This document shows, piece by piece, positions 3,932 through 56,808 of a DNA stretch of 64,000 nt. Source of the stretch: Siphonodentalium dalli (lineage: Eukaryota; Mollusca; Scaphopoda; Gadilida; Siphonodentaliidae). Below the pieces are notes generated by a model. That model was not told where the DNA came from. It saw only the letters and a program-made list of their open reading frames with translations, and made no database searches. Made by a program: the position numbers and the translations under genes. Where the stretch lies: contig CP136063.1 of the NCBI GenBank assembly GCA_032622095.1, forward strand, positions 211,997,982 to 212,061,981, in the 5' to 3' direction. Each line of letters starts with the position of its first letter. Position 1 is the stretch's first letter.

Positions 3932-4064
3932 AAGTCTCAAAATATATAGTATAGATTAGTTGTCGCGCGCCATACGTCTTGTGGCATTTCTACACAATGG
4001 ATGTGTAAATACGATATCTACAAAATAATAGAGTAGACGTTTCTACTCTTTATTTATTTCCGTG

Positions 4065-4231
4065 TAACTGCTATAAATGACACAAAGACAACAAATGAAC
4101 CAGATGCGGTAGAGAAACGTGATGAACATGAACCGAAGGAGAGAAAAGCCTTCACAAAGAAACTCAAGAAGTTCTACAAGAGCTGCAAACTCCAGACTAA
4201 ACGAGGGCTCCGTATTCTCACCTTCCTGTGA
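4065..4231 (+). pseudogene. family B type 1, copy 1: 3' fragment of exon 2
   Basis: This is the last part of exon 2 of the short gene found complete at 10849-12268. It enters at the codons for TAINDTKTTNEP and runs in frame to TGA at 4229-4231, ending in the basic stretch KKLKKFYKSCK. It lacks three codons (EKY) present in the other copies and has no 5' part. The 3' flank is also conserved, with AATAAA at 4375. It is read as a 5'-truncated duplicate. The function of the family is unknown. Confidence 0.8.
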
Positions 4232-5265: not shown

Positions 5266-6747
5266 ATGGTTGTTTTGATTGCAAGTCGGCTTCTCTTAGT
5301 CGGGTTGTTTGTCGTCAAACATTCTGACGATAATTCAGGTGATGGGCGATCAACGGCAATCACTCTGTAAAAACAGACCCCTACCAGGATATATATATAG
5401 GGATAAATGTGCTGCTCGACATTCAGAACATCCCTAAGAACACATGCACTTTCATTATTCAGAAAACTTTTAGTCGAGGAACTGTACCGTTAAATATTAG
5501 GTAAGTTTCTATCTATTGAAATTGAGCTTGGTGCATCGGCATTTATGTAACTAATTTGATATATTCCCCGAAATATTCTGTACAGATTCATTCCGGGATA
5601 TAAATAAACTTTAATTCAGCCAGGGAGTACAGTAATCAAGAGCTTCAACCAAAATGTGAGAATTTTATTTTATATAGAACAATTCACTTTAATAGAAACA
5701 CTATACATTCCTATACTGGAGATGTTTCCAGACCTCCCGTAACAATTAACAGCAACAATATAAATCAACAATGTGTTCTCCTCATCGTGTAATCTGGACC
5801 ATTAAATACCAAAGAATATAATTTTGTTATTGAAAAAATAACAAAATAATTTGTGGTGTCCCTCTAAAATATCCAAATTCTATGAAATAAATGCATAAAC
5901 AATTCAACATCGAGTATAATAGATATATGTACTAAATCTCCCATTGGGTTACGAAAGAATGTATTAGACAACTATTCACCTGGAGTCGTGTTCAGGAAAA
6001 TGAGCAGATGACAGTACGAATAAAATATAACACATGACGACTGCAGAAGATCGAATCGCATGCAAACGTTCTGAGAAATGTTCAGATATAGTTCAACAAG
6101 TTCAACTAACGCCCTATCTGAGCACTCCATATAAGGGGCTATGGGAGTTACGAGCCAGTGAATATTTAGTATCGAAATGGTTAAGCAGCGTATACTGGAG
6201 TGTAAGAATTCAACGTTAACAATAATTTGTTCAATGTTTTCATGATTTTGTTCTTAATTTCAGGCCACAAAATGCAGCGAGTTGAAACACCCATGTCTAC
6301 AAAACAAGGGACAGCAGTGTCGTCATCTGGAGCATGAACGGAGATGATAGTCTAGAGACACAGTATCTCCGTAACATAGGAAACACGATACACGACACAT
6401 CGACAGAATTCGCACTAAATGCCACGTTCACGTGCAAAACACCAGGATACGCCAAGACCGGTAACTCTAAACGAGCGTCTCCAAGAGAGCTGCTGTTCAG
6501 AAACCGACTTGTGACTACGGGAGTGACAAGACATATCTCCACTCCCAAGAACTGCGTGTCCATGCCCAACCTAACTGCTATAAATGACACAAAGACAACA
6601 AATGAACCAGAGGCGGTAGAGAAACGTGATGAACATGAGAAGTACGAACCGAAGGAGAGAAAAGCCTTCACAAAGAAACTCAAGAAGTTCTACAAGAGCT
6701 GCAAACTCCAGACTAAACGAGGGCTGCGTATTCTCACCTTCATGTGA
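5266..6747 (+). pseudogene. family B type 1, copy 2: two exons, frameshifted exon 2
   Basis: Exon 1 is read at 5266-5338, with an ATG in GCCGCCATGG and a hydrophobic stretch, ending TCAG before GTGATG. Exon 2 starts after TTTCAG at 6264 and ends at TGA 6747. The phases agree (one base left over, then GC). Exon 2 lacks one G that copies 4 and 5 have (GAGTTGAAAC against GAGTTGGAAAC), so the spliced frame meets a stop just before the second half. The VVIW motif is present in the DNA but out of frame. An internal ATG at 6334 opens the last 137 codons. This copy has no SINE in its intron and so shows the empty site for the insertions at 9357, 11482 and 56022. Confidence 0.65.
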
Positions 6748-7705: not shown

Positions 7706-8197
7706 TTATTTCTTCTTTTTTCTTTTCTTTTTAGGGTTTCGTTTCTCCGTTGATGACTGTGGAGATGGAGGAGATTCCTGTTGTTGTTGTATGAAGAGTT
7801 GGAGTGTTCTTACGTTCCGATCATGGATTCTTTGGGTTTCAGCAATTGTCTCCTCCACAGAGCGAGTGTCGATGTTGTTGTTGTTGGTGCTGGTGGAGCT
7901 GGGGGACACCGGGATGTGTTGGTAATCCGGTGTCCAAGGTGTATAACTATCCAGTTCCACGTCGAAGCTGGCGGCAGGAACATCTGGGGTGGTATCCACG
8001 TCCCTGTCTCCGCAAGCCTCGACGACGACAGCAGGGACCTCCGGCAGATCCACGGAGTCCCTGCTAGCTGGTACTATGTCGTCAGTCTCCATGCAGGTCG
8101 AGTCGTCTGTGCGTCTCTCAGACAACTTCGACCCGCCGGCTATGACTATAGACGGCTGAACCACAAGGGGAGGGTGCATAGACCACACACATGTCAC
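7706..8197 (-). CDS. family A protein, inverted copy (Gln-rich, lysine tail)
   Basis: A 163-codon open frame on the minus strand. The middle is acidic and rich in D, E, V and P. Then come an N/S/T-rich linker (NNNNID), a helix-prone stretch ending LQLFIQQQQE, and the tail SSTEKRNPKKKRKKKK. The tail matches that of the three array ORFs at 40123, 44486 and 48822 (SSTEKPNSKKKRKKKK), so all are one family. The 3' flank is shared too (AATAAAGGCAA, then CTTCCGACAATCCCGGG). The lysine tail could act as a nuclear localisation signal; this is inference. The segment 7562-8178 interrupts sequence continuous in other copies, so it is an inverted insertion. The first codons overlap block P and the real start is uncertain. 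The product is not recognised. Confidence 0.5.
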   Translation of the reverse strand: MTCVWSMHPPLVVQPSIVIAGGSKLSERRTDDSTCMETDDIVPASRDSVDLPEVPAVVVEACGDRDVDTTPDVPAASFDVELDSYTPWTPDYQHIPVSPSSTSTNNNNIDTRSVEETIAETQRIHDRNVRTLQLFIQQQQESPPSPQSSTEKRNPKKKRKKKK

Positions 8198-8352
8198 CTT
8201 TAATTCCGAACTTACGAGCCAAAAAGTGCAAATATAATTTGACTAAAACATATTCGAACTTAATTGACATGTATTTTTACTGAGAAACACATCGCATACC
8301 GACTTAATTTCCGATAAAATAATCCAAAACGTTATGCCGTGATCGGTCGTGT
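8179..8352. repeat. mosaic block P, copy 3 (partial)
   Basis: It resumes at CATAGACCACACACATGTCACC right after the inverted family A segment and ends at a G run at 8356-8375, as in copy 2. Confidence 0.65.
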
Positions 8353-8355
8353 GGA

Positions 8356-8375
8356 GGGGGGGGGGGGGGGGGGGG
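8356..8375. repeat. 20-base poly(G) tract
   Basis: Pure G run at the same block junction as 7324-7347. Confidence 0.85.
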
Positions 8376-8727
8376 TCCATCTGCAACTGGAGGTTGCATG
8401 ATTTTTATGAGTCGCTCTCGCAATAATATATATTTATTTGATTACCCTGTATGTATGCATGTTCCCAGAGTAGATTCATAACATAGCATATATGCTGGTA
8501 ATTAAAGGAGGGGATTTTTTTTGTTTGTTTTTTAATAATTTGTCACAATGCCTTTCGGTTCTGCGCCCGATGATAGAAATATAACTTTTTGTATCATTAC
8601 CGCTATAGATTGTTCTAATAGCTAAGCGCATCCTTTGTGCAATGCCGCGAAATTAACAGTGTTCACCAACCACCAGTGGTACCGTTGTGTGTAATTCGGA
8701 CATAACACACCTTTAAGCGATGCCGCC

Positions 8728-9610
8728 ATGGTTGTTTTGATTGCAAGTCGGCTTCTCTTCTCAGTCGGGTTGTTTGTCGTCAAACATTCTGACCAGAATT
8801 CAGGTGAGGGCGATCAACGGCAATCACTCTGTAAAAACAGACCCCTACCAGGATATATATATATAGGGGTAAATGTGCTGCTCGACATTCAGAACATCCA
8901 TAAGAACACAGGCACTTTCATTATTCAGAAAACGTTTAGTCGAGGAACTGTACCGTTAAATATTAGGTAAGTTTCTATCTATTGAAATTGAGCTTGGTGC
9001 ATCGGCATTTATGTAACTAATTTGATCTATTCCCAGAGATAAATAAACTTTAATTGAGACAGGGAGTACATTAATCAAGAGCTTCAACCCCAATGTGAGA
9101 TTTTTATTATTATATAGAACAATTCACTTTAATAGAAACACTATAAAATCCTATACTGGAGATGTTTCCAGACCTCCCGTAACAATTAACAACAACAGTC
9201 CGCCGTTCAGGAAAATGAGCAGATGACAGTACGAATAAAATATAACACATGACGACTGCAGAAGATCGAATCGCATGCAAACATTCTGAGAAATGTTCAG
9301 ATATAGTTCAACAAGTTCAACTAACGCCCTATCTGAGCACTCCATAACGGGCTATGCTTGATTGATTGATTGGGGTTTATTGTCGCTTTAGCCACCAAGG
9401 CCATATCACGACATTGCCAGTTTTAGTGGTGGAGGAAATCCGCACACTTGCGAATAATCTAACAGTGATTTCAATGGCTGATAAACTCGTCAACCATGTG
9501 CGGCAAACCACCGGCCATCGGCGAGTAACATAACGGGCTATGGGAATTACGAGCCAGTGAATATTTAGTATCGAAATGGTCAAGCAGCGTATACTGGAGA
9601 GTAAGAATTC
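8728..9610 (+). pseudogene. family B type 1, copy 3: exon 1 and intron, exon 2 lost
   Basis: Exon 1 is read at 8728-8803: ATG in a GCCGCCATGG context, start MVVLIASRLLFSVG, a hydrophobic N-terminus like a signal peptide or anchor, ending TCAG before GTGAGG, a good donor. The intron is recognisable up to TTCAACGTTAACAA near 9620. There it joins GTTATGCCGTGATCGG of block P, and exon 2 is gone. A one-base deletion after the donor lets the unspliced frame stay open to TAA at 8968, inside the alternative donor ATTAGGTAAGT. A SINE-like insertion sits in the intron. This copy is probably dead. Confidence 0.6.
9357..9529 (-). mobile_element. SINE-like retroposon, copy 1
   Basis: This insert of about 173 bp is flanked by the 13-base direct repeat ATAACGGGCTATG (9344-9356 and 9530-9542). 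It ends, read on the minus strand, in an (AATC)n tail. Copy 2 of the same intron (near 6130) lacks the insert and has a single version of the target. The minus-strand 3' part (GCGACAATAAACCCC then AATC repeats) looks like SINE or LINE tails common in invertebrates. The exact family is unverified. Confidence 0.75.
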
Positions 9611-9680
9611 AACGTTAACAACTTGTTATGCCGTGATCGGTCGGAAACCAAAATGTTAACGGACGGACATAAAATAATAT

Positions 9681-10496: not shown

Positions 10497-10848
10497 TCCA
10501 TCTGCAACTGGAGGTTGCATGACTTTTATGAGTCGCTCTCGCAATACTATATATTTATTTGATTACCCTGTATGCATGTATGCATGTTCCCAGAGTAGAT
10601 TCATAACATAGCATATATGCTGGTAATTAAAGGAGGGGATTTTTTATTTTTTTTTTAAAATAATTTGTCACAATGCCTTTCGGTTCTGCGCCCGATGATA
10701 GAAATATTCCTTTTTATCATTACCGCTCGATTGTTCTAGTATCTAAGCGCATCCTTTGTGCAATGCCGCGAAATTAACAGTGTTCACCAACCACCAGTGG
10801 TACCGTTGTGTGTAATTCGGACATAACACACCTTTAAGCGATGCCGCC

Positions 10849-12268
10849 ATGGTTGTTTTTATTGCAAGTCGGCTTCTCTTCTCAGTCGGGTTGTTTGTCG
10901 TCAAACATTCTGACGAGAATTCAGGTGATGGGCGATCAACGGCAATCACTCTGTAAAAACATACCCCTACCAGGATATATATACTGTATACGGGTAAATG
11001 TGCTGCTCGACATTCAGAACATCCCTAAAAACACAGGCACTTTCATTATTCAGAAAACGTTTAGTCGAGGAACTGTACCGTTAAATATTAGGTAAGTTTC
11101 TATCTATTGAAATTGAGCTTGGTGCATCGGCATTTATGTAACTAATTTGATCTATTCCCAGAGATAAATAAACTTTAATTGAGCCAGGGAGTACATTAAT
11201 CAAGAGCTTCAACCACAATGTGAGAATTTTATTATTATATAGAACAATTCACTTTAATAGAAACACTATAAAATCCTATACTGGAGATGTTTCCAGACCT
11301 CCCGTAACAATTAACAACAACAGTCCGCCGTTCAGGAAAATGAGTAGATGATAATACGAATAAAATATAACACATGACGACTGCAGAAGATCGAATCGCA
11401 TGCAAACATTCTGAGAAATGTTCAGATATAGTTCAACAAGTTCAACTAACGCCCTATCTGAGCACTCCATAACGGGCTATGATTGATTGATTGGGGTTTA
11501 TTGTCGCTTTAGCCACTAAGGCCATATCACGACATTGCCAGTTTTAGTGGTGGAGGAAATCCGCACACTTGCGACTAATCTAACAGTGATTTCAATGGCT
11601 GATAAACTCGTCAACCATGTGCGGCAAACCACCGGCCATCGGCGAGTAACATAACGGGCTATGGGAATTACGAGCCAGTGAATATTTAGTATCGAAATGG
11701 TCAAGCAGCGTATACTGGAGTGTAAGAATTCAACGTTAACAATAATTTGTTCAATGTTTTCATGATTTTATTCTTAATTTCAGGCCACACAATGCAGCGA
11801 GTTGGAAACACCCATCTCTACAAAACAAGGGACAGCAGTGTCGTCATCTGGAACATGAACGGAGATGATAGTCTAGAGACACAGTATCTCCGTAACATAG
11901 GAAACAAGATACACGACACATCGACAGAATTCGCATTAAATGCCACGTTCACGTGCAAAACACCAGGATACGCCAAGACCGGTAACTCTAAACGAGCGTC
12001 TCCAAGAGAGCTGCTGTTCAGAAACCGACTTGTGACTACGGGAGTGACAAGACATATCTCCACTCCCAAGAACTGCGTGTCCATGCACAACCTAACTGCT
12101 ATAAATGACACAAAGACAACAAATGAACCAGAGGCGGTAGAGAAACGTGATGAACATGAGAAGTACGAACCGAAGGAGAGAAAAGCCTTCACAAAGAAAC
12201 TCAAGAAGTTCTACAAGAGCTGCAAACTCCAGACTAAACGAGGGCTGCGTATTCTCACCTTCCTGTGA
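10849..12268 (+). CDS. family B type 1, copy 4: intact two-exon gene
   Basis: Best complete member. Exon 1 is 10849-10924 (25 codons plus one base; ATG in GCCGCCATGG; start MVVFIASRLLFSVGLFVV, hydrophobic and signal-peptide-like), ending TCAG before GTGATG. Exon 2 is 11784-12268, after TTCTTAATTTCAG. The phases agree and give 186 residues. VVIW lies at about residues 45-48, inside VVIW-x-M-x-G-x2-S-x-E-x-Q-Y-x-R. A Lys/Glu-rich region follows, and the C-terminus KKLKKFYKSCK to RGLRILTFL is basic. AATAAA is at 12412. Translation could instead start at the ATG near the start of exon 2 (11792), with exon 1 as leader; a stronger donor, ATTAGGTAAGT, lies downstream but is out of phase. The motif is shared with the array genes at 41097-42674. 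The function is unknown; a secreted or membrane-anchored small basic protein is one reading. Confidence 0.55.
11482..11650 (-). mobile_element. SINE-like retroposon, copy 2
   Basis: Same insert as 9357-9529, in the intron of copy 4, with ATAACGGGCTATG on both sides (11469-11481, 11651-11663). The identical site and flank show it was inherited by duplication of the intron, not inserted anew. Confidence 0.8.
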
Positions 12269-12411: not shown

Positions 12412-12417
12412 AATAAA
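12412..12417 (+). promoter_or_regulatory. poly(A) signal AATAAA, family B copy 4
   Basis: About 145 bases after the TGA of the intact copy. A palindrome, CGAACCGGGTTCG, lies 55-70 bases further on and is also conserved among type 1 copies. Confidence 0.65.
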
Positions 12418-14906: not shown

Positions 14907-17221
14907 ATGAGGAGTCATCAATTGAAGTCGGTTACACCACTGAACATTTCTTTCAGAGATACTAGCTGTGAATGTGACAGTGAGAGTGGTATTTGAAAGG
15001 GTCGTGCATTTAAAACTGCTAATTTTGAAAGCCAGGTGAGCGAGACAGGTGGTAAAGGGGAACAGGATGCAGAAGTTTGTGTTGAAGATAGGGGTAAATC
15101 AGTAAGAGTTGCGCCTTGCGTTGAAGTTATTTGTGAGAACGTAGTTCTGAATAAGATATATGTGATTGATGAGAGCGACAAAGTTGCCGAGAATGTAGTT
15201 GTGCAAGTTGCAAAGAAATTCGAAAAGCGTATTGTGGCTCGGAGGAATGTGAAACGGTGTGTAAAGAGAACAAGTAATGTGACGGGTGAATATGGGGCGC
15301 CATCCCTGCAAATATTCGTTTTCGGAGATATTTCCTTGGATCCAAGCAGATATCTGCTCGCATTATGGAGATATCTCCTCGGTTTCAAGGAGATATCTGC
15401 TTGGAATATGGAGATATCTCTTCGGAAATATTTTCAAGGAGATATCACCTTGAAACCGATGAGATATCTCCATAATGCGAGCAGATATCTGCTCGCATTA
15501 TGGAGATATCTGCTTGAAAATATTTCAAGGAGATATCTCCATGTTCCGAGCATATATCTGCTTGGATGTATTTCGAAAAAATGGAAAAATCATTAATATT
15601 TCATGGCCGCGGTTTTCCAATGAGATATCTCCATAATCCAAGATATCTGCTTGGAATATCAAGGAAATATCTGCTTGGAATATGGAGATATCTCCTTGGG
15701 TCCAAGGAGATATCTCGTTGAAAACTATTTCAAGGAGATATCTCCATAATCCGAGCAGATATCTGCTTGGATTATGGAGATATTTCCTCGGTTTCAAGGA
15801 GAGGAGATATCTCCTAGGATCCAAGGAGATATCTCCATAATCCAAGCAGATATCTCATTGGATCCAAGGAGATATCTCCATAATGGACCATATTCCAATC
15901 AGATATCTGCTAGGAATTGCAATTCCAAGGAGATATCTCATCGAAACCGAGGAGATATCTCCGAATTACGAGGAGATATATCCGAAAACGAATATTTGCA
16001 GGGATGGCGCCCCATAGGTGAAGGCATATGTGATGGAAGTAGGATTGCAAGGGGTGAGGAGATACGCGAAGGGGTTGAGCAAGGTGGTAGCGTGGTTAAC
16101 GAATGTTGTGAGTCGAGTGGTGTGCTGGTAGATGTGGGGATTGAGGGTGAGAAGATGGAGGTTGAGGAACGAGGTAGCGTGGTTAATGAATGTTGTGAGT
16201 CGAGTGGACGTGTGCTGGTAGATGTGGGTGTGAGGGATCGGGAGATATGCGACGAGACATGTGAGGAGATAGTTGTTGAACAAGGTGGTAGCGTGGTTAA
16301 TGAATGTTCTGAGTCGAATGGTGTGCTGTTAGATGCGGTTGTGAGAGATCGGGAGATATGCGAGGAAACATGTGAGGAGAGAGTGGTTGAACAAGGTGGT
16401 AGCGTGGTTAATGCATGTTGTGAGTCGAGCGACGTGGTCGTTGAGGGTGAGGAGATATGCACGATTGCGGAGGCAGATCCAGTTTGTAGCGAGATTAGCG
16501 CGATTGAGTTTGATGTTGCAGCGGAAGTGGTTGTGGGTGGTCAGGAGATGTGTGAGGAGGTGGAGGTCTAGCAAGGTAGCGTGGTCAGTGAAAGTTGTGA
16601 GCAGAGTGGTGTGCGCGTCGATGTGACTGTTATTGATGAGGACATAGTTGATGGAAGCTGGGTTGAACACGATTATTGCAAGAATTATGAGTCGAGCATG
16701 CACCAAGGTTCACATGTAGAGTTTGCCGCGGAAATACGGGGCGAGCAGATATGTGAGAAGACGGTGGTTGGGCAAGGTGGTAGCGTGGTTAATGCATGCG
16801 GCGTGCATGATGTGGGTGTAGTTTTTGGAGATGGGGAGATATGTGAAGAGATGAAGGCTGAGAAACGTAGAGACGTGGGTGTAGAGGTAGGTCCGATGAG
16901 TGAGTGTTGTGCGAATGGAAAGGCAGATAGCATGATTCCTGTTGTGAATAAGTACGTACTGGTTGAGTATCAGAAATCCATATACCCTGGTATTGTATAG
17001 AAGAAATGTCTGAGCGTGAATTGCTTGTTAAATGCATGAAGCGTGTTGGCGTTAAATATTCTAACTGCTTTTGCTGGCCGAAAAAATGTAATGACATTTC
17101 TTGGTATAATTATGATGAAGTGATCTCGTTTATTCCAGATCCACAACTGATCGAGGGGTCTCATTCACATTTCGCTGTTGGGGAATGTGCGTGGGACTCG
17201 GCGACGAGTAAACTGTTTTAA
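14907..17221 (+). pseudogene. broken gene inside the 6-kb element: Cys/Val-rich repeats with a Tudor-like C-terminus
   Basis: One frame can be followed through several lesions. It starts at ATG 14907. TGA at 14994-14996 breaks it. A 726-bp foldback with a 6-base duplication, in frame, interrupts it at 15291-16016. TAG at 16569-16571 stands where a Glu codon is expected. A frameshift lies near 16997, and the last frame stops at 17221. The middle has five or six diverged repeats built on GGSVVNECCESSG and EICEETCEE (16083, 16173, 16284, 16394, 16574, 16775). The end reads NKYVLVEY, YPGIV, LLVKCM, FCWPKKCNDISWYNYDEVI and IPDPQL. This spacing of aromatic residues and PG resembles Tudor/SH3-like barrels at the C-termini of some invertebrate transposon-linked proteins; that is inference. 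Not otherwise recognised. Confidence 0.5.
15291..16016. mobile_element. 726-bp foldback of AGATATCT palindromes
   Basis: The ends are inverted repeats (TATGGGGCGCCATCCCTGCA onward, 15291; complement ending 16016, about 35 bases each), flanked by the 6-base duplication GGTGAA (15285-15290 and 16017-16022). Nearly all the interior is variants of GGAGATATCTCC and CAGATATCTGC, joined by phrases such as CTTGGATCCAAG, TTGGAATATGG and ATTATGG, in both orientations. Dozens of GATATC sites result. The element interrupts the central gene without changing its frame. Open frames in it are by-products of the repeats. Confidence 0.85.
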
Positions 17222-27483: not shown

Positions 27484-28399
27484 CTGTGTAGCAACATACC
27501 ATGATCTATACAGAACTCTCTATAATCATCTCACAGGTAGTGACGAATTTCGACACACAACTTGGAGTATATTGTAATGTAATTTTAATATATCTCCACG
27601 CTGTCCAGCAGACCAGCTCTTCGCTGTTACCAGTAAACACATCGAGTAGATACCATATTGTGAAAATGTGAACAGTGCCGCACAACAGAACACCTCTTCG
27701 AAAGTTATATTTGAGCGCAGAAAGTCATGTAATTATTTCCCTTTATCTTTGCCACAGCAATTAGGTCGACTAGTTTCGATACCGGTATAATTCAAAAGTG
27801 GTTATTATTATAAATGTATATTGGATCGCAAACTGCCAGATTTAATATACGTGGTCTTTATTACGTTATTATTATTTATTAACACGGCGTATAATCTTGA
27901 CAACAATGTGCTATTTATGATATTGATGATTGGTATAAGAACAAGGTCTGTCTATATTTTAAAATTCGTTCTGTCTATAGAGGTTTTAACAATACTCACC
28001 GTGAAGGCCATCCGTAGGGGCCTATATATCCTGCATTGGCAGCCTTCATTGAACTTTATTGGTCGGAATAATTTGGTTTGGGTATAACACTACTCTCATC
28101 CCACGGACCGTGAACACAATGACAGCCTCCGGGACACTGTCACTATTGTGTCCTATCTTCGTCTTCGAATATGCAAGGTTTTCAGGTCCCATTACTCTTT
28201 CATAGACTTAGTCCTGTAACATCGTTCTATTCCGACCTCTGTTGATTAAAACCCCTTTAAATCTGAAACCTTAAACATTTTTTTATTTTGTTTTGGAGCG
28301 TATGATACGGGAGGTTCCTGTGGCACTCAACTTCATCATTTTCTCGATAAATGAGCTTTCACGCGACAGTCTCTGTTAGCTTTACACTTTGTTGAAAAT
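27484..28399. other. AT-rich spacer upstream of the zinc-finger gene
   Basis: No supported gene. An open frame of about 88 codons at 27821-28087 is hydrophobic and AT-driven. The last in-frame stop before the zinc-finger ATG is TGA at 28352. A possible acceptor, TCTCTGTTAG, lies at 28371-28380, so an upstream coding exon cannot be excluded. Confidence 0.5.
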
Positions 28400-29473
28400 A
28401 TGTATGAATCAATGGAGCCATCAGCCATGGAGACCAGGGAGGATAAACACACATTGGGGACCAGGGAGGATAAACACACAGTGGATACCAGGGAGGATAA
28501 ACACACAGTGGAGACCAGGGAGGATAAACACACAGTGGAGACCAGGGATGATAAACACACAGTGGGGGATGCTTATCAAACATTCGCGGGTTCGTGTAGG
28601 CCTACCCAGTTGAACAATAACACGAAGCGCAGGGATGTTTCTACTTATCAGTGCGATATTTGCTGGAAATCATTCGCCACATCTCAAACTTTGCTCTCAC
28701 ATAAGAGGATTCACGCAGGGGACCGCCCATATCAATGTGATGTGTGCGAGAAATCATTTACTCAGACGAGTAGCTTGACGAAGCATAAGAAGGTCCACAC
28801 CGGGGATCGCCAGTATCAATGTGATGTGTGCGAGAAATCATTTATTCAGATGAGTGACATGACGAGGCATAAAAGGATCCACACTGGGGATCGCCAGTAT
28901 CAATGTGATGTGTGCGAGAAATCATTTATTCAGATATGTAGCCTGACGATACATAAGAGGGTCCACACCGGGGATCGCCCATATCAATGTGATGTGTGCG
29001 AGAAATCATTTATTCAGATGGGTAGCCTGACGATGCATAAGAGGGTCCACGCCGGAGATCGCCCGTATCAATGTGATGTGTGCGAGAAATCATTTATTCG
29101 GCTGAGTCACCTGACGTGTCATGAGAAGATCCACACAGGGGATCGCCAGTATCAATGTGATGTGTGCGAGAAATCATTTATTTGGCTGAGTGGCCTGACG
29201 AGACATACGAGGGTCCACACCGGGGATCGCCCATATCAATGTGATGTGTGCGAGAAATCATTTATTCAGATGGGTAGCCTGACGATGCATAAGAGGGTCC
29301 ACGCCGGAGATCGCCCGTATCAATGTGATGTGTGCGAGAAATCATTTATTCAGATGGGTAGCCTGACGGTGCATAAGAGGGTCCACACCGGAGATCGCCC
29401 GTATCAATGTGATGTGTGCGAGAAATCATTTATTTGGCTGAGTGGCCTGACGAGACATAAGAGGATCCACTAA
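28400..29473 (+). CDS. C2H2 zinc-finger protein, ten fingers
   Basis: 357 codons. Residues about 10-55 are five copies of a nine-residue acidic/basic repeat (ETREDKHTV). From about residue 80 come ten C2H2 fingers of the form YQCDVCEKSF-x5-L-x2-H-x3-H, joined by HTGDRPY or HTGDRQY linkers (HTGEKPY in the usual family). The Cys and His ligands are intact in all ten. Fingers 5, 8 and 9 are almost the same (IQMGSLTMHKRVH), showing recent internal duplication. Such proteins bind DNA in the nucleus; the target here is unknown. TAA at 29471 comes exactly where the next linker should start, and three more fingers follow in frame, so this may be a shortened gene. There is no KRAB, SCAN or BTB domain. 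An upstream exon is possible. Confidence 0.8.
   Translation: MYESMEPSAMETREDKHTLGTREDKHTVDTREDKHTVETREDKHTVETRDDKHTVGDAYQTFAGSCRPTQLNNNTKRRDVSTYQCDICWKSFATSQTLLSHKRIHAGDRPYQCDVCEKSFTQTSSLTKHKKVHTGDRQYQCDVCEKSFIQMSDMTRHKRIHTGDRQYQCDVCEKSFIQICSLTIHKRVHTGDRPYQCDVCEKSFIQMGSLTMHKRVHAGDRPYQCDVCEKSFIRLSHLTCHEKIHTGDRQYQCDVCEKSFIWLSGLTRHTRVHTGDRPYQCDVCEKSFIQMGSLTMHKRVHAGDRPYQCDVCEKSFIQMGSLTVHKRVHTGDRPYQCDVCEKSFIWLSGLTRHKRIH
28429..28563. repeat. 27-bp minisatellite in the N-terminal coding region
   Basis: Exactly five units of 27 bp (GGAGACCAGGGAGGATAAAC plus ACACAGT, with small changes), encoding the nine-residue repeat. The number of units is likely to vary between alleles. Confidence 0.85.
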
Positions 29474-30315
<842 letters not shown>

Positions 30316-30616
30316 CCGGAATGAACAAGAGATAATTCACATGGAGACCGTCCGTATTCGTGTGGTGTGTGCGGAAAGTCATTAACTCCGTCGGAAACCT
30401 GACTGAACAAGAGATAATTCACACTGGAGATCGACCGTATTTGTGTGATGTTTGCGGAAAGTCATTAACTCCGTCGGAAACCTGACTGAACAAGAGATAA
30501 TTCACATGGAGATCGTCTGTATTCGTGTGATGTGTGCGGAAAGTCATTATCTCCGTCGGAAACCTGACTGAACAAGAGATAATTCACACTGGAGATCGAC
30601 CGTATTTGTGTGATGT
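30316..30616 (+). pseudogene. array module 1: frameshifted zinc fingers (unit 1; repeats every 1590 bp)
   Basis: About four finger relics per unit. Each keeps HTGDRPY-like, CDVCGKS and GNLTEQEIIH pieces, but the second half is one frame away from the first, and the first His is Gln (EQEIIH). All relics carry the same lesion, so a single dead finger was copied. They join the decaying fingers at 30240-30315 without a break. Confidence 0.8.
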
Positions 30617-31030
30617 GCACTGCAAATACAAATGTTCAGATTTGAACACCAAAAATGCAACAGATATTGAACATGTTCTATGTAGTATGTGTTCAATGTT
30701 GAACACTAGCGTTCAATGGAGTAATTTGAACACTATGTGTTCATTTTTTTTAATGTTGGTGTTAAATTTTGAACACTGTGTGTTCAAATTTTTTTTACGT
30801 TGGTGTTCTAATTTTGAACACTATGTGTTCAAATGTTTTTAACGCTGGTGTTCAAATTTGAATACTATGTGTTCAAATGTTTTTAACGCTGGTGTTCAAA
30901 TTTGAATACTATGTGTTCAAATGTTTTTAACACTGGTGTTCAATTTTGAATACTGTGTGTTCAGTTTTTTAAACGCTAGTATTCAAACATGTCAACACTG
31001 GCATTAAAATTTGAACACTAGTGTCGTGTC
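30617..31030. repeat. array module 2: GTGTTCAAATTTGAACAC palindromes (unit 1)
   Basis: About eight diverged units of 45-50 bp alternating TTTGAACACTATGTGTTCAA and AATGTTTTTAACGCTGGTG. It opens with CACTGCAAATACAAATGTTC. In design it resembles the AAACAC arrays at 20070 and 22565. The hydrophobic frames through it are not considered genes. Confidence 0.8.
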
Positions 31031-31905
31031 GTCCTCATTGGACAACACCGACCCTGTCTTGAAAACAGCAACCTTTGCATTTTTGCTTGGTGGTGGTGAG
31101 TTCAAGCCATCAACGTGGCCACCTTTCTTCTTTTCTGCCATTCGCATATGCCGAATTTTCTGGGAAAACTAATGAAGTAGTAAACTCTGAAAATATCAAT
31201 AATGTTAGGTCATTTATATGTGACCATAAGAATCATGACATGATTTGTACATGCTGCACATATGATTATGAAGCAAAACCCATTAGCAGTTGCTCAGTCA
31301 GTTCTATATTCTATAACTTATATACTACAGTACTTGGGCCTACTAGTACTACTACTAGGCCAAATTTGTTTTTTGAAAGAAATGTATGTAGCCTATACTT
31401 ATAATATATACCAACTAATAGATCTACAATTTTCTACATGCATGACTATACTATATACGTATTCCGAATTGTCAAGGTTATACTTATAGTAACTTATACT
31501 GATGAAAATGAATAATTATGAGTTCATGGTGATGGAAATTGAAATTACATAATTTCTAAATTCTTGGCACAAAAATTTAATGTGAATACTCACCACTAAC
31601 GTACACGTAGAATACATGTCCATGCGTCGAAATAAAAACAAATATCCGCTAGGCCTATTTACTGAAGATCGATTTTCTTGAGCCACACAAATTTCACAAT
31701 AACACAACCACAATGACGCCAGGCATCTCTGCTAATTACAGTGAATTTCCCCCCGCAAATATCTGTTTTAGTGTTAAAAGGGGGGTGGGTGTCAATAATG
31801 GTCGGAAAAAACTGCCGAAAACGGAAACAAATTTGGCGGTGGGGGTGAGTGGGTACAAAAATGATCGAAAGGGAAAAAAATGCCATACATGCCTGAAATT
31901 TTTTT
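31031..31905. repeat. array module 3: spacer and GGTCGGAAAAAACTGCC block (unit 1)
   Basis: 31031-31710 is AT-rich with no supported gene. 31735-31905 (CAGTGAATTTCCCCCCGCAA to GAAATTTTTTTCCG) is found once more outside the array at 57423-57598, where it continues into ACCCCCCACCTGTAATTAT, as at the end of unit 5. Confidence 0.75.
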
Positions 31906-34900
31906 CCGGAATGAACAAGAGATAATTCACATGGAGACCGTCCGTATTCGTGTGGTGTGTGCGGAAAGTCATTAACTCCGTCGGAAACCTGACTGAACAA
32001 GAGATAATTCACACTGGAGATCGACCGTATTTGTGTGATGTTTGCGGAAAGTCATTAACTCCGTCGGAAACCTGACTGAACAAGAGATAATTCACATGGA
32101 GATCGTCTGTATTCGTGTGATGTGTGCGGAAAGTCATTATCTCCGTCGGAAACCTGACTGAACAAGAGATAATTCACACTGGAGATCGACCGTATTTGTG
32201 TGATGTGCACTGCAAATACAAATGTTCAGATTTGAACACCAAAAATGCAACAGATATTGAACATGTTCTATGTAGTATGTGTTCAATGTTGAACACTAGC
32301 GTTCAATGGAGTAATTTGAACACTATGTGTTCATTTTTTTTAATGTTGGTGTTAAATTTTGAACACTGTGTGTTCAAATTTTTTTTACGTTGGTGTTCTA
32401 ATTTTGAACACTATGTGTTCAAATGTTTTTAACGCTGGTGTTCAAATTTGAATACTATGTGTTCAAATGTTTTTAACGCTGGTGTTCAAATTTGAATACT
32501 ATGTGTTCAAATGTTTTTAACACTGGTGTTCAATTTTGAATACTGTGTGTTCAGTTTTTTAAACGCTAGTATTCAAACATGTCAACACTGGCATTAAAAT
32601 TTGAACACTAGTGTCGTGTCGTCCTCATTGGACAACACCGACCCTGTCTTGAAAACAGCAACCTTTGCATTTTTGCTTGGTGGTGGTGAGTTCAAGCCAT
32701 CAACGTGGCCACCTTTCTTCTTTTCTGCCATTCGCATATGCCGAATTTTCTGGGAAAACTAATGAAGTAGTAAACTCTGAAAATATCAATAATGTTAGGT
32801 CATTTATATGTGACCATAAGAATCATGACATGATTTGTACATGCTGCACATATGATTATGAAGCAAAACCCATTTGCAGTTGCTCAGTCAGTTCTATATT
32901 CTATAACTTATATACTACAGTACTTGGGCCTACTAGTACTACTACTAGGCCAAATTTGTTTTTTGAAAGAAATGTATGTAGCCTATACTTATAATATATA
33001 CCAACTAATAGATCTACAATTTTCTACATGCATGACTATACTATATACGTATTCCGAATTGTCAAGGTTATACTTATAGTAACTTATACTGATGAAAATG
33101 AATAATTATGAGTTCATGGTGATGGAAATTGAAATTACATAATTTCTAAATTCTTGGCACAAAAATTTAATGTGAATACTCACCACTAACGTACACGTAG
33201 AATACATGTCCATGCGTCGAAATAAAAACAAATATCCGCTAGGCCTATTTACTGAAGATCGATTTTCTTGAGCCACACAAATTTCACAATAACACAACCA
33301 CAATGACGCCAGGCATCTCTGCTAATTACAGTGAATTTCCCCCCGCAAATATCTGTTTTAGTGTTAAAAGGGGGGTGGGTGTCAATAATGGTCGGAAAAA
33401 ACTGCCGAAAACGGAAACAAATTTGGCGGTGGGGGTGGGTGGGTACAAAAATGATCGAAAGGGAAAAAAATGCCATACATGCCTGAAATTTTTTTCCGGA
33501 ATGAACAAGAGATAATTCACATGGAGACCGTCCGTATTCGTGTGGTGTGTGCGGAAAGTCATTAACTCCGTCGGAAACCTGACTGAACAAGAGATAATTC
33601 ACACTGGAGATCGACCGTATTTGTGTGATGTTTGCGGAAAGTCATTAACTCCGTCGGAAACCTGACTGAACAAGAGATAATTCACATGGAGATCGTCTGT
33701 ATTCGTGTGATGTGTGCGGAAAGTCATTATCTCCGTCGGAAACCTGACTGAACAAGAGATAATTCACACTGGAGATCGACCGTATTTGTGTGATGTGCAC
33801 TGCAAATACAAATGTTCAGATTTGAACACCAAAAATGCAACAGATATTGAACATGTTCTATGTAGTATGTGTTCAATGTTGAACACTAGCGTTCAATGGA
33901 GTAATTTGAACACTATGTGTTCATTTTTTTTAATGTTGGTGTTAAATTTTGAACACTGTGTGTTCAAATTTTTTTTACGTTGGTGTTCTAATTTTGAACA
34001 CTATGTGTTCAAATGTTTTTAACGCTGGTGTTCAAATTTGAATACTATGTGTTCAAATGTTTTTAACGCTGGTGTTCAAATTTGAATACTATGTGTTCAA
34101 ATGTTTTTAACACTGGTGTTCAATTTTGAATACTGTGTGTTCAGTTTTTTAAACGCTAGTATTCAAACATGTCAACACTGGCATTAAAATTTGAACACTA
34201 GTGTCGTGTCGTCCTCATTGGACAACACCGACCCTGTCTTGAAAACAGCAACCTTTGCATTTTTGCTTGGTGGTGGTGAGTTCAAGCCATCAACGTGGCC
34301 ACCTTTCTTCTTTTCTGCCATTCGCATATGCCGAATTTTCTGGGAAAACTAATGAAGTAGTAAACTCTGAAAATATCAATAATGTTAGGTCATTTATATG
34401 TGACCATAAGAATCATGACATGATTTGTACATGCTGCACATATGATTATGAAGCAAAACCCATTTGCAGTTGCTCAGTCAGTTCTATATTCTATAACTTA
34501 TATACTACAGTACTTGGGCCTACTAGTACTACTACTAGGCCAAATTTGTTTTTTGAAAGAAATGTATGTAGCCTATACTTATAATATATACCAACTAATA
34601 GATCTACAATTTTCTACATGCATGACTATACTATATACGTATTCCGAATTGTCAAGGTTATACTTATAGTAACTTATACTGATGAAAATGAATAATTATG
34701 AGTTCATGGTGATGGAAATTGAAATTACATAATTTCTAAATTCTTGGCACAAAAATTTAATGTGAATACTCACCACTAACGTACACGTAGAATACATGTC
34801 CATGCGTCGAAATAAAAACAAATATCCGCTAGGCCTATTTACTGAAGATCGATTTTCTTGAGCCACACAAATTTCACAATAACACAACCACAATGACGCC

Positions 34901-37900
34901 AGGCATCTCTGCTAATTACAGTGAATTTCCCCCCGCAAATATCTGTTTTAGTGTTAAAAGGGGGGTGGGTGTCAATAATGGTCGGAAAAAACTGCCGAAA
35001 ACGGAAACAAATTTGGCGGTGGGGGTGGGTGGGTACAAAAATGATCGAAAGGGAAAAAAATGCCATACATGCCTGAAATTTTTTTCCGGAATGAACAAGA
35101 GATAATTCACATGGAGACCGTCCGTATTCGTGTGGTGTGTGCGGAAAGTCATTAACTCCGTCGGAAACCTGACTGAACAAGAGATAATTCACACTGGAGA
35201 TCGACCGTATTTGTGTGATGTTTGCGGAAAGTCATTAACTCCGTCGGAAACCTGACTGAACAAGAGATAATTCACATGGAGATCGTCTGTATTCGTGTGA
35301 TGTGTGCGGAAAGTCATTATCTCCGTCGGAAACCTGACTGAACAAGAGATAATTCACACTGGAGATCGACCGTATTTGTGTGATGTGCACTGCAAATACA
35401 AATGTTCAGATTTGAACACCAAAAATGCAACAGATATTGAACATGTTCTATGTAGTATGTGTTCAATGTTGAACACTAGCGTTCAATGGAGTAATTTGAA
35501 CACTATGTGTTCATTTTTTTTAATGTTGGTGTTAAATTTTGAACACTGTGTGTTCAAATTTTTTTTACGTTGGTGTTCTAATTTTGAACACTATGTGTTC
35601 AAATGTTTTTAACGCTGGTGTTCAAATTTGAATACTATGTGTTCAAATGTTTTTAACGCTGGTGTTCAAATTTGAATACTATGTGTTCAAATGTTTTTAA
35701 CACTGGTGTTCAATTTTGAATACTGTGTGTTCAGTTTTTTAAACGCTAGTATTCAAACATGTCAACACTGGCATTAAAATTTGAACACTAGTGTCGTGTC
35801 GTCCTCATTGGACAACACCGACCCTGTCTTGAAAACAGCAACCTTTGCATTTTTGCTTGGTGGTGGTGAGTTCAAGCCATCAACGTGGCCACCTTTCTTC
35901 TTTTCTGCCATTCGCATATGCCGAATTTTCTGGGAAAACTAATGAAGTAGTAAACTCTGAAAATATCAATAATGTTAGGTCATTTATATGTGACCATAAG
36001 AATCATGACATGATTTGTACATGCTGCACATATGATTATGAAGCAAAACCCATTTGCAGTTGCTCAGTCAGTTCTATATTCTATAACTTATATACTACAG
36101 TACTTGGGCCTACTAGTACTACTACTAGGCCAAATTTGTTTTTTGAAAGAAATGTATGTAGCCTATACTTATAATATATACCAACTAATAGATCTACAAT
36201 TTTCTACATGCATGACTATACTATATACGTATTCCGAATTGTCAAGGTTATACTTATAGTAACTTATACTGATGAAAATGAATAATTATGAGTTCATGGT
36301 GATGGAAATTGAAATTACATAATTTCTAAATTCTTGGCACAAAAATTTAATGTGAATACTCACCACTAACGTACACGTAGAATACATGTCCATGCGTCGA
36401 AATAAAAACAAATATCCGCTAGGCCTATTTACTGAAGATCGATTTTCTTGAGCCACACAAATTTCACAATAACACAACCACAATGACGCCAGGCATCTCT
36501 GCTAATTACAGTGAATTTCCCCCCGCAAATATCTGTTTTAGTGTTAAAAGGGGGGTGGGTGTCAATAATGGTCGGAAAAAACTGCCGAAAACGGAAACAA
36601 ATTTGGCGGTGGGGGTGGGTGGGTACAAAAATGATCGAAAGGGAAAAAAATGCCATACATGCCTGAAAATTTTTTCCGGAATGAACAAGAGATAATTCAC
36701 ATGGAGACCGTCCGTATTCGTGTGGTGTGTGCGGAAAGTCATTAACTCCGTCGGAAACCTGACTGAACAAGAGATAATTCACACTGGAGATCGACCGTAT
36801 TTGTGTGATGTTTGCGGAAAGTCATTAACTCCGTCGGAAACCTGACTGAACAAGAGATAATTCACATGGAGATCGTCTGTATTCGTGTGATGTGTGCGGA
36901 AAGTCATTATCTCCGTCGGAAACCTGACTGAACAAGAGATAATTCACACTGGAGATCGACCGTATTTGTGTGATGTGCACTGCAAATACAAATGTTCAGA
37001 TTTGAACACCAAAAATGCAACAGATATTGAACATGTTCTATGTAGTATGTGTTCAATGTTGAACACTAGCGTTCAATGGAGTAATTTGAACACTATGTGT
37101 TCATTTTTTTAAATGTTGGTGTTAAATTTTGAACACTGTGTGTTCAAATTTTTTTTACGTTGGTGTTCTAATTTTGAACACTATGTGTTCAAATGTTTTT
37201 AACGCTGGTGTTCAAATTTGAATACTATGTGTTCAAATGTTTTTAACGCTGGTGTTCAAATTTGAATACTATGTGTTCAAATGTTTTTAACACTGGTGTT
37301 CAATTTTGAATACTGTGTGTTCAGTTTTTTAAACGCTAGTATTCAAACATGTCAACACTGGCATTAAAATTTGAACACTAGTGTCGTGTCGTCCTCATTG
37401 GACAACACCGACCCTGTCTTGAAAACAGCAACCTTTGCATTTTTGCTTGGTGGTGGTGAGTTCAAGCCATCAACGTGGCCACCTTTCTTCTTTTCTGCCA
37501 TTCGCATATGCCGAATTTTCTGGGAAAACTAATGAAGTAGTAAACTCTGAAAATATCAATAATGTTAGGTCATTTATATGTGACCATAAGAATCATGACA
37601 TGATTTGTACATGCTGCACATATGATTATGAAGCAAAACCCATTTGCAGTTGCTCAGTCAGTTCTATATTCTATAACTTATATACTACAGTACTTGGGCC
37701 TACTAGTACTACTACTAGGCCAAATTTGTTTTTTGAAAGAAATGTATGTAGCCTATACTTATAATATATACCAACTAATAGATCTACAATTTTCTACATG
37801 CATGACTATACTATATACGTATTCCGAATTGTCAAGGTTATACTTATAGTAACTTATACTGATGAAAATGAATAATTATGAGTTCATGGTGATGGAAATT

Positions 37901-38264
37901 GAAATTACATAATTTCTAAATTCTTGGCACAAAAATTTAATGTGAATACTCACCACTAACGTACACGTAGAATACATGTCCATGCGTCGAAATAAAAACA
38001 AATATCCGCTAGGCCTATTTACTGAAGATCGATTTTCTTGAGCCACACAAATTTCACAATAACACAACCACAATGACGCCAGGCATCTCTGCTAATTACA
38101 GTGAATTTCCCCCCGCAAATATCTGTTTTAGTGTTAAAGGGGGGTGGGTGTCAATAATGGTCGGAAAAAACTGCCGAAAACGGAAACAAATTTGGCGGTG
38201 GGGGTGGGTGGGTACAAAAATGATCGAAAGGGAAAAAAATGCCATACATGCCTGAAATTTTTTT

Positions 38265-38730
38265 CCGACCCCCCACCTGTAATTATGCTTATTAATCTAT
38301 GTCTTAAACAGTTGAACTAGTTGTTTACATATATATGATATACGACATCTGTTTATAAAGTGTTCGGTTGCGATTCTGTTTGCCAGATAGATAGAAAACA
38401 TCCACATACATATTCCATAAAATTTTACTATGTTTTCTTTGAACCAACACAAGGCCAGAAAGTCGAAAATGGTATCACTCATGAAACAAATTATTGGACC
38501 AAACTAAGATTAAATTTTGATACATAGACCATACACATGTCACCTTTAATTCCGAACTTACGAGCCAAAAAGTGCAAATATAATTTGACTAAAACATATT
38601 CGAACTTGACATGTATTTTTACTGAGAAACACACATACCGACTTAATTTCCGATAAAATAATCCAAAACGTTATGCCGTGATCGGTCGGAAACCAAAATG
38701 TTAACGTACGGACATAAAATAATATATATA
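38265..38730. repeat. mosaic block P, copy 5
   Basis: Intact P block from ACCCCCCACCTGTAATTATG to ACATAAAATAATATATATACG, followed directly by block Q. It shows the undisturbed P-Q order and the empty site of the 6-kb element. Confidence 0.8.
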
Positions 38731-40025: not shown

Positions 40026-40122
40026 GTTTTATGTATCTCTCCAATATGATTAAACTATGTTTGATCGAAGGGTTGTATTTAATGCAGATACGTTATTCCT
40101 ATGTATCTGACTACTGGCATGC

Positions 40123-40446
40123 ATGGTGGCAACTTTTACCATTGCGGACTCTTTCACATGCAAAACATTAACAGCGGAGGACTACAATCCACCGACAACG
40201 AGACCTCCGGTGTCCCCCGACTGCATCGCGGAAGAGGAGCAGGCATCACCACCCCATGTTCCTGTTGAAGATGCTGAAATTGAACACCAAAAGTACATGG
40301 AAGAAGCAGAACATCAACAGTACTTAGTGAGCCATCAACTAAAATTCCAACAGCTCCAGGATCTAATCCTACAGCAGCAACAACAACAACAGATATCTTC
40401 AACCGAGAAACCTAATTCGAAGAAAAAGAGGAAAAAGAAAAAATAA
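40123..40446 (+). CDS. family A protein, array unit 1
   Basis: 107 residues. The first 16 codons (MVATFTIADSFTCKT) lie in sequence shared with block Q; family-specific sequence starts at about LTAEDYNPP. An alternative is a splice acceptor, ACATTAACAG, at 40164-40174. The parts are a Pro-rich acidic stretch (PPTTRPPVSPDC, EEEQASPP), a charged helix-prone segment (EIEHQKYMEEAEHQQYLVSH), LQDLILQQQQQQQ, then SSTEKPNSKKKRKKKK. The lysine tail could be a nuclear localisation signal and the Q-rich helix an interaction surface, both inferred. AATAAAGGCAA follows at about 40490. It lies about 650 bases before family B exon 1 on the same strand. The tail matches the inverted copy at 7706-8197. No known family recognised. 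Confidence 0.5.
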   Translation: MVATFTIADSFTCKTLTAEDYNPPTTRPPVSPDCIAEEEQASPPHVPVEDAEIEHQKYMEEAEHQQYLVSHQLKFQQLQDLILQQQQQQQISSTEKPNSKKKRKKKK

Positions 40447-41096: not shown

Positions 41097-42674
41097 ATGA
41101 CCATTGGTACCGTTGTGTTGTTTCAATTTCCTCAGATCGCGGCCGCCACCTTTGGTGTGATCTATGTTCAGGTGATCATATATATATTCATTAACATCTT
41201 AAGCAATCAAAAGGCGAATATGTCCCATATTGAGGAACCCTATATATATAGAATTAATGTCGTGTGTAAAAGTCCTACGTTACTTGGGAACCACTGTGGA
41301 TGTTCATTAAAAAAAAATTAAAAACAAAAAACAACTTGTTCTATCGATTTTCCAATTTCAGACGTCAGTAAGCGAAGTTTTGATATTTTGCAGTTATATC
41401 AGTTAAAATTGAGTAATTCGCGGACATATATTCTAAATTGAAACGTGTGTTGGCATTGCCGCCACAAGTCACCTGACTGACCATTTCACCTACATTCTAG
41501 GCCAACACGATCATTTTTGAATTTATGGAAAGATGTTATTTTGATTGAAGTTAATTAAATATACATAATCCGAATTAACGCTCCTAAATTACCATTTCTT
41601 TGGCTTCGGGGGTATAAATATTTGATTCGAGTCGAGGAACCCATCCATCAAAGTTATCACTGATATCGATTTTTGAAATCTGTTATTTTCTCCAATAATT
41701 ATTGGACTATTTGGCGGCCAAGAAAATATTCGATGAGCCGACCCGACAAACTCTCGATATCAAATTGCGTTGAAAAAAATATATAACATGTTTTGGAAAA
41801 TCTTATAAGAGTTGACAGCGGTTAGAATTATTTTTTGGTAATGATCGATACTGATAACTAAATCGTCCTTTGAAGAAATGTTGATTTTGGAATCTGACGA
41901 TACGGGACCATCGAATCGGGATTGTGTACCTTTAAATGTATCACTTGAGACCTTGTTGGGGTTGGGTCCCTACAAGTAGATATAAACATGTAGGTTTGGC
42001 GTTGTCAAGCTAATAATAATAATAATAAAACATCTTTCAAATCACATTATATTCACTTGAGAAGTGTGTGTTCATAAACCAACTTATTAAATTGGCGTAG
42101 CCTTACATACTGAAATAATGTAATTGAAACTGTCAAATAAAATTAAGAATATCATGTCAATTATCTGTCTACTTATTTATTTCAGATGGAGAGAAGAGAC
42201 AATAATGTAGTCATTTGGGACATGGAAGGTGAGGGTAGCATTGAAGAGCAGTACATGAGGCTAACAGAGAGTGGGGAAGGTTCAAATATGAAGTCTAAGA
42301 ATCGTCGGAAGTCAGTTACTAAAGGCAGGAGACAAAGATCAGTAATGTACAAAGAATATATGAAGGGAATTTCAACCAAAAGAATCTCCGCCCAGTACAC
42401 CAGCCGCACCGAGCGAACAATAAGGCAGGGCACACCGACTAGACGATCTCTCAGAAGGCAGGTGCTGGTACGACAAGCTGTCAACGTCGGACTCCCGTTA
42501 TATGCATCAACATCAAGGCATTCTATATGTCAGCCTTCAGTTGTTAGCTTCTCAACTACGCCGAGTATGGATGGTATCAAAATATATTCACGTATTGATG
42601 TAGCATCTATAGTCAAAATCGAAAATATAAACGAGTGGAGAAGAAAAGGAAGAGCTTGGCAAATTTACGACTGA
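41097..42674 (+). CDS. family B type 2, array unit 1: two-exon gene
   Basis: Exon 1 is 41097-41171 (25 codons, MTIGTVVLFQF...GVIYVQ, hydrophobic), ending GTTCAG before GTGATC. Exon 2 is 42186-42674, after TTATTTATTTCAG. The phase is 0 on both sides and the total is 187 residues, against 186 in type 1. VVIW lies at about residues 33-36, in RDNNVVIW-D-M-E-G, followed by S-x-E-E-Q-Y-M-R. Then comes a very basic region (KNRRKSVTKGRRQRS, RRSLRRQVLVRQ) and the end RRKGRAWQIYD. AATAAA is at 42800. Sequence before exon 1 (TTTGTGCAATCCCGC, GTGTTCACCAA, GGTACCGTTGTGT) is shared with type 1, but the type 1 start ATG is lost. Exon 2 itself begins with ATG, so translation could start there. The function is unknown. 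Confidence 0.5.
41584..41720. repeat. intronic dispersed repeat
   Basis: CTAAATTACCATTTCTTTGG through CCATCCATCAAAGTT recurs, diverged, at 59910-60030. It is present in all three array introns. Confidence 0.65.
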
Positions 42675-49700: not shown

Positions 49701-49828
49701 TATATATAAATTGTTTTTATATATATAAGATCAGTATTCACACACCCTTTGTGCAATCCCGCAGAATGAAGCGTGTTCACCAATATTATGACCATTGGTA
49801 CCGTTGTGTTGTTTCAATTTCCTCAGAT
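49701..49828. repeat. left copy of the 128-bp LINE target duplication
   Basis: Same 128 bases as 51432-51559 (TATATATAAATTG to TTTCCTCAGAT). It includes the first 41 bases of family B exon 1, cut off by the LINE. Confidence 0.9.
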
Positions 49829-51431: not shown

Positions 51432-51559
51432 TATATATAAATTGTTTTTATATATATAAGATCAGTATTCACACACCCTTTGTGCAATCCCGCAGAATGA
51501 AGCGTGTTCACCAATATTATGACCATTGGTACCGTTGTGTTGTTTCAATTTCCTCAGAT
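51432..51559. repeat. right copy of the 128-bp LINE target duplication
   Basis: It carries exon 1 again from its ATG (51519) and runs on into the rest of the exon, so an uninterrupted exon 1 lies after the LINE. Confidence 0.9.
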
Positions 51560-56323: not shown

Positions 56324-56808
56324 GCCACACAATGCAGCGAGTTGGAAACACACATCTCTACAAAACAAGGGACAGCAGTGTCATCATCTGGAGCATGAAC
56401 GGAGATGATAGTCTAGAGACACAGTATCTCCGTAACATAGGAAACAAGATACACGACACATCGACAGAATTCGCATTAAATACCACGTTCACGTGCAAAA
56501 CACCAGGATACGCCAAGACCGGTAACTCTAAACGAGCGTCTCCAAGAGAGCTGCTGTTCAGAAACCGACTTGTGACCACAGGAGTGACAATACATATCTC
56601 CACTCACAAGAACTGCGTGTCCATGCCCAACCTAACTGCTATAAATGACACAAAGACAAAAAATGAACCAGAGGCGGTAGAGAAACGTGATGAACATGAG
56701 AAGTACGAACCGAAGGAGAGAAAAGCCTTCACAAAGAAACTCAAGAAGTTCTACAAGAGCTGCAAACTCCAGACTAAACGAGGGCTACGTATTCTCACCT
56801 TCCTGTGA
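56324..56808 (+). pseudogene. family B type 1, copy 5: exon 2 only
   Basis: Acceptor TTCTTAATTTCAG at 56311-56323, then an intact exon 2 to TGA at 56808. VIIW replaces VVIW and M-N-G-D-D-S-L-E is kept. Substitutions against copy 4 include TRHIST to TIHIST and STPKN to STHKN. With exon 1 missing it would need another first exon or would start at the ATG at 56332. Poly(A) signal at 56952. Possibly dead, but the frame is still open. Confidence 0.6.

Follow-up and report, generated by a model that had tools for sequence, protein, structure and literature searches.

Within the 64-kb window analysed here (the whole stretch C3:211997982-212061981 of the scaphopod Siphonodentalium dalli) we found members of a small gene family with a VVIW motif, which occurs in two types and is arranged in head-to-tail arrays on two contigs. 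On the evidence of the sequence the gene family is real. With modest confidence we think that exon 1 is a 5' untranslated region (UTR) and that translation starts at the ATG of exon 2, giving a basic protein; that this protein is a nuclear adaptor is a proposal of low confidence. In a typical unit a leader whose donor is conserved is followed by a putative intron of about 0.7-1 kb, an acceptor 0-8 bases 5' of the ATG and one coding exon. Read from the exon-2 ATG, the predicted products would lack a hydrophobic leader and would be basic proteins of 158 aa (type 1; pI 9.9, 12/158 residues arginine) and 169 aa (type 2; pI 10.9, 23/169 arginine).

Structure of the genes in the window

The type 1 gene proposed in the first-pass annotation (10849-12268) was confirmed in each of its parts, namely exon 1, the donor GT, the TTTCAG acceptor, exon 2 and the stop codon (Table 1). 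That annotation had also counted five type 1 copies, one of them fully intact, and the window does hold five partial or whole copies of which one is complete. Intact type 1 exon-2 ORFs occur only at 11784 and 56324, and an exon 1 lies nearby only for the former; no exon 1 was found within 1.5 kb upstream of the 56324 copy, and a genome search gave no leader match from 10.8 kb of the window to past its right end. A 41-bp block upstream of exon 1 recurs in genes of both types with 83% identity (blastn); the sequence TTTGTGCAATGCCGC had 10 matches in the window at ≤3 mismatches vs 1.6 expected, these copies being mutual duplicates. A bZIP-like site in this block was dropped as a candidate, as CGAT replaces CAAT in most type 1 copies.

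Table 1. Positions in the window of type 1 and type 2 genes, their copies and adjoining elements.
Feature	Position	Strand	Remarks
Upstream block, putative proximal promoter or 5' leader	10750-10790	+	41 bp, blastn
Type 1 exon 1 (25-codon hydrophobic stretch)	10849-10924	+	donor CAG/GTGA conserved; coding or 5' UTR
Type 1 intron, putative	10925-11783	+	859 bp; GT...TTTCAG
Type 1 exon 2	11784-12268	+	CDS 11792-12268, 158 aa from ATG; stop 12266-12268; intact
AATAAA, polyadenylation-signal-like hexamer 3' of type 1	12412-12417	+	read from the sequence
Second intact type 1 exon 2	56324-56808	+	CDS 56332-56808
Type 1 exon 2, pseudogene	6262-6747	+	frameshift near start; exon 1 at about 5266-5338
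Type 1 exon 2, 3' fragment	4064-4228	+	
Type 1 exon 1 (intron follows, no exon 2)	8728-8803	+	within partial duplicate 8364-9621
Type 2 exon 1-like segment	41097-41171; also 45462-45536, 51519-51593	+	
Type 2 exon-1 stub	49788-49828		41 bp
Type 2 CDS, copy 1	42186-42674	+	162 aa, frameshifted C terminus; ATG is first codon of exon 2
Type 2 CDS, copy 2	46522-47010	+	C-terminal frameshift as in copy 1
Type 2 CDS, copy 3	52609-53097	+	C-terminal frameshift as in copy 1

The three type 2 copies noted previously are likewise present as exon-2 ORFs, each preceded by an exon-1-like segment that ends in CAG before GT. In all three (3/3) one base has been lost near codon 145 by comparison with the 18 intact copies of 169 aa in the rest of the genome, and the last ~18 residues of the window ORFs are a frameshift product. 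Intact type 2 genes encode 169 aa from the ATG, and those that were read end in LRIFSF, two of them with a one-residue variant. The arithmetic by which the joined proteins had been assigned total lengths of 186 and 187 residues and splice phases of 1 and 0 is correct, but the near-equality of the lengths is a coincidence without meaning, because the 162-aa window ORF and the total of 187 both result from the one-base deletion that frameshifts the type 2 C terminus.

Several other features lie between these genes. A 1590-bp unit is repeated head to tail about five times at 30316-38267 (99.7-99.9% identity) and contains zinc-finger-like repeats and a 44-bp tandem array, and an ORF at 28355-29470 encodes ten C2H2 zinc fingers, with a 27-bp tandem repeat near its start. 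ORFs with a lysine-rich tail at 7706-8242 (-), 40111-40446 (+), 44474 and 48810 belong to dispersed elements with >100 matches genome-wide; the first two were considered as partners of the family and rejected on that ground. A 403-aa ORF at 49792-51003, without a Pfam match, overlaps the end of the type 2 exon-1 stub and resembles the terminal part of a reverse transcriptase from a non-LTR retrotransposon, and imperfect 21-bp tandem repeats at 15324-15884 are built on GGAGATATCTCC-like palindromes.

Two arrays in the genome

Copies of the family were sought across the genome (2.23 Gb, 9 contigs), in which some stretches were masked as N, and all copy counts given here are lower bounds. Protein searches with the window copies at E 0.001 returned at least 51 type 1 and at least 29 type 2 matches, all on contigs C3 and C5, and among the matches listed there was none at this threshold outside the arrays on these two contigs. 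When L005, an outlying type 1 copy, served as query, at least 29 of 55 matches (E up to 10) were full-length without a stop, and with a type 2 copy of 169 aa at least 18 of 57 were full-length and stop-free (14 on C3 and 4 on C5). The remaining matches were fragments, frameshifted copies (the three in the window included), cross-matches between type 1 and type 2, and a weak match on C4 (E 0.07). A degenerate VVIW pattern, the last letters of which exclude type 1 so that its count bears on type 2 only, had 23 matches in the genome, all inside the two arrays, compared to 0 for the reversed control.

The larger array spans C3 211.80-212.19 Mb (about 390 kb) and the smaller one C5 192.73-192.78 Mb. 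Matches to the family lie on the plus strand of both arrays, save one minus-strand fragment, and the units are head-to-tail. For a large part of type 1 the spacing is near 2.80 or 3.25 kb; on C3 the 17 type 2 genes follow one another at distances of 4.3-23 kb. As in macrosatellites, multi-kilobase head-to-tail units were found at one or two chromosomal places, and many units (at least 29 type 1 and at least 18 type 2) contain an intact ORF. In five type 2 genes (L016, L019, L020, L021 and L022) the leader/promoter block is present two to three times upstream, the extra copies having altered donors.

Both arrays are flanked on the right by an exon that matches Pfam Bax1-I (E 4.7e-9) and is present at exactly two places. 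The 10-kb right flanks (L062, C3:212195000-212204999; L064, C5:192786000-192795999) are 98.1% and 99.8% identical over two long pieces, while the left flanks (L061 and L063) gave no alignment to each other. Since the flanks align on the right but not on the left, the C5 array looks like the product of a recent segmental (inter-chromosomal) duplication that took in the right-hand end of the C3 array, or else like an assembly error or duplicate. The left flank on C5 (L063, C5:192712000-192721999) contains a ~164-bp tandem repeat in which long minus-strand frames stay open across several units.

Homology of the two types and their predicted product

Type 1 and type 2 proteins of the window matched each other by tblastn (E 8e-7 to 2e-5), and their local alignment scored 112, against a mean of 30 and a maximum of 61 for 2000 shuffles. 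The part beyond the VVIW block scored 80 vs a shuffled maximum of 73, and the last 30 residues alone gave a weaker signal, with 18/2000 shuffles reaching the score. By these alignments the two types are homologous. M1, R3, D14, VVIW, M22, G24, S27, E29, QY and R34 were invariant in all eight rows of an alignment of four proteins per type, as were STP at 90-92 and the C-terminal LRI..F. The proteins have an N-terminal block, VVIWxMxGxxSxExQYxR, and a basic C-terminal part ending in LRI[LF][TS]F; the region between the two is divergent in type 1.

This combination of a conserved N-terminal block with a basic C-terminal part suggests a nuclear adaptor. With low confidence, and from composition and motif resemblance, we propose that the protein would work in the nucleus as an adaptor; still tentatively, the N-terminal block might bind a partner and the basic parts nucleic acid, and the number of array units might set the amount of protein made. 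We take the VVIW block to resemble a SUMO-interacting motif, and SUMO binding is offered as an idea only. A PP1-type C-terminal motif was considered and does not fit type 2. AlphaFold models (mean pLDDT 42 and 45) showed a few helices of low confidence, and the type 1 model also had strands; they were built with 8-9 similar sequences, a depth at which low pLDDT is no proof of disorder.

The first-pass annotation had called the small family, with its VVIW-x-M-x-G motif, undescribed, and within Pfam, NCBIfam, PHROGs, PDB and viral contigs this holds. The Pfam HMM search gave sub-threshold matches only, the best being DUF6615 in 2/2 type 2 proteins (E 0.00064; 19.7 bits vs a cut-off of 23.8), and NCBIfam gave no match to the family proteins. 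The best match in PHROGs, which have no curated cut-off, had E 0.098; two matches among PDB sequences (E 0.6 and 0.86) were taken as chance, and 25 pattern matches in viral contigs included no relative. By title, the literature covered, which lies largely outside subscription journals, does not describe this protein.

Selection on the coding exon

For type 2 all 18 of 18 intact ORFs were used, 11 of them distinct; of their 34 distinct codon changes, 19 were synonymous vs 27-29% expected (P 0.0003-0.0009, transition bias included), and by this measure type 2 is under purifying selection. Within the type 1 array, 10/34 changes were synonymous, as expected without constraint (P 0.40), in a set of 27/29 intact ORFs (17 distinct) from which L005 and L032 were dropped for their misfit to the acceptor pattern. 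A comparison of L005 with L011 gave a pN/pS of 0.45 for columns 1-80, 1.04 for columns 81-125 and 0.29 for columns 126-160 (0.65 overall). Pooling the two ends, which were picked after viewing the alignment, 14/32 changes were synonymous (P 0.02-0.05), and constraint on type 1, apparently at its ends only, is thus weakly shown.

L005 differs from other type 1 ORFs by two length differences (9 and 6 bases). Against L011, identity in this copy (L005:2011-2481) falls to about 60% in mid-exon, compared with 82-100% over the remainder of the coding exon and the 3' flank and 94% for the 250 bases that follow the stop. The divergence in mid-exon may reflect relaxed evolution, or else the exchange of a patch with a diverged copy since lost. 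Antisense ORFs over exon 2 (130 and 115 aa) were not favoured as an alternative, since certain type 2 pairs, among those that have diverged furthest, change at sense third positions (L015 vs L019: 1, 2 and 12 changes at codon positions one, two and three). The corresponding counts for the window type 1 copy vs L005 were 30, 21 and 25, with no third-position excess.

Start of translation and rival readings

The hydrophobic 25-codon exon had been described as splicing in phase to exon 2; its position, its donor and the open joined frame all stand, while its coding role is uncertain. A joined frame with an in-frame exon-1 ATG was found in 19/27 intact type 1 and 15/18 intact type 2 genes, in a search that covered 1.5 kb upstream (1.3 kb for some genes) and in which L019 was counted with a different ATG. 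In L015 the in-frame exon-1 ATG lies 1.7 kb upstream, beyond the stretch searched. Eight of the 27 intact type 1 genes had no joined in-frame exon-1 ATG within these 1.5 kb (or 1.3 kb); in L002, L003 and L008, all with an intact exon 2, the donor is kept and the ATG is gone. In five more intact type 1 genes the stretch covered gave no exact match to the donor; two of these genes (L024 and L044) have a leader 1.7-1.9 kb upstream, ahead of a truncated exon 2.

Homology between the types begins at the exon-2 methionine (MQRV and MERI aligned at M1). Moreover, GGTACCGTTGTGT, common to both types, lies about 50 bases 5' of the type 1 ATG, yet inside the putative exon 1 of type 2; this difference in placement indicates that the exon-1 ATGs of the two types are not homologous. 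Reading all copies as far as they could be aligned, 3/15 exon-1 codon changes were synonymous (P 0.27-0.46). A narrower count, without seven copies (five of type 1, two of type 2) that have indels or >8 base differences, gave 0/11; the view that exon-1 changes are amino-acid changes only was rejected on the wider count. With 3/15 synonymous, exon-1 substitutions do not separate the untranslated and coding models, and our confidence in a 5' UTR is lower for this reason.

Exon 1 might encode a 25-residue hydrophobic leader, acting as a signal peptide or anchor and spliced in phase, in which case the proteins would be secreted or membrane-bound, a reading that we consider possible though rather unlikely. 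It would account for the frequency of in-frame exon-1 ATGs in both types, for the hydrophobic N terminus of the joined protein (Kyte-Doolittle 2.0 and 1.7; proteins read from exon 2 only have no such terminus), for the paired indels by which L009 and L017/L019 keep the joined frame open, and for the position of the type 1 exon-1 ATG in GCCGCCATGG, a strong start context. It is opposed by the non-homologous exon-1 starts and differing splice phases (1 vs 0) of the two types, the existence of intact exon-2 copies without an exon-1 ATG, the two V>D changes in L005 and the absence of visible protein-level constraint in exon 1 generally; pyrimidine-rich DNA, moreover, by itself reads as hydrophobic residues. 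We favour a 5' UTR intron, which from the sequence we would rate about twice as likely as the hydrophobic leader.

With either start codon, the arrays could also represent a decaying satellite in which type 1 ORFs are a relic within amplified DNA and only type 2, or a few copies, are functional. The neutral appearance of type 1 changes inside the array, the many truncated and frameshifted copies and the frameshifted C termini of the window's type 2 copies all fit such decay, which we nevertheless hold to be doubtful, given the number of intact type 1 ORFs, the low pN/pS at both type 1 ends against L005 and the fact that the two types can still be aligned over most of their length despite saturated synonymous divergence. 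An origin of the family as part of a transposon or viral insertion is very improbable. Transposon-like ORFs (7706-8242 and 40111-40446) are interspersed among the units, but these have copies scattered across many contigs, in contrast to the VVIW gene, which was found in two arrays of head-to-tail units only; the viral contigs gave no relative and PHROGs no match better than E 0.098. On the distribution of copies, a transposon origin was rejected.

Discussion

Coding arrays like these have parallels among human repeats. Units of RS447 and D4Z4 carry an ORF and, besides a main locus, have copies on another chromosome (PMC3018141); the arrays described here are like D4Z4/DUX4 and RS447/deubiquitinase in having kilobase-scale head-to-tail ORF units at a main locus and on a second chromosome. 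As in those repeats, the number of units would provide many templates for the product. Unlike in those systems, unit length varies here, transposon-like ORFs lie among the units and the protein had no relatives in our searches; the comparison covers one assembly. To our knowledge, the arrays known to have an ORF in each unit are human ones.

The family also resembles orphan gene families that have expanded in tandem, in that it is amplified in tandem and has no recognisable homologue in the libraries searched; orphan families are taxonomically restricted, whereas the absence of homologues here covers Pfam, NCBIfam, PHROGs, PDB sequences and viral contigs. Histones and protamine-like proteins are likewise small, basic and arrayed, but the VVIW proteins have no Pfam histone or protamine match, and the block that is invariant near their N terminus is hydrophobic and in part acidic. 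The arginine content of protamines is far above the 12/158 and 23/169 found here. We give only a small chance to the further idea of a nuclear family in which two coding arrays, on separate chromosomes, would set the dose. This would be an array-based dosage or conflict system, possibly of the germline, like that of ampliconic genes; its terminal interaction motifs would be kept constant, and the outlying type 1 copy would be free to diverge in its middle.

As an orphan coding array, the family is interesting yet ordinary in kind. It also serves as a warning that, where genes were duplicated recently, an upstream exon that has stayed open can be mistaken for a coding one. A large array that codes for an unrecognised protein in another animal would offer another place in which to ask why some small proteins are kept at a high and variable dose.
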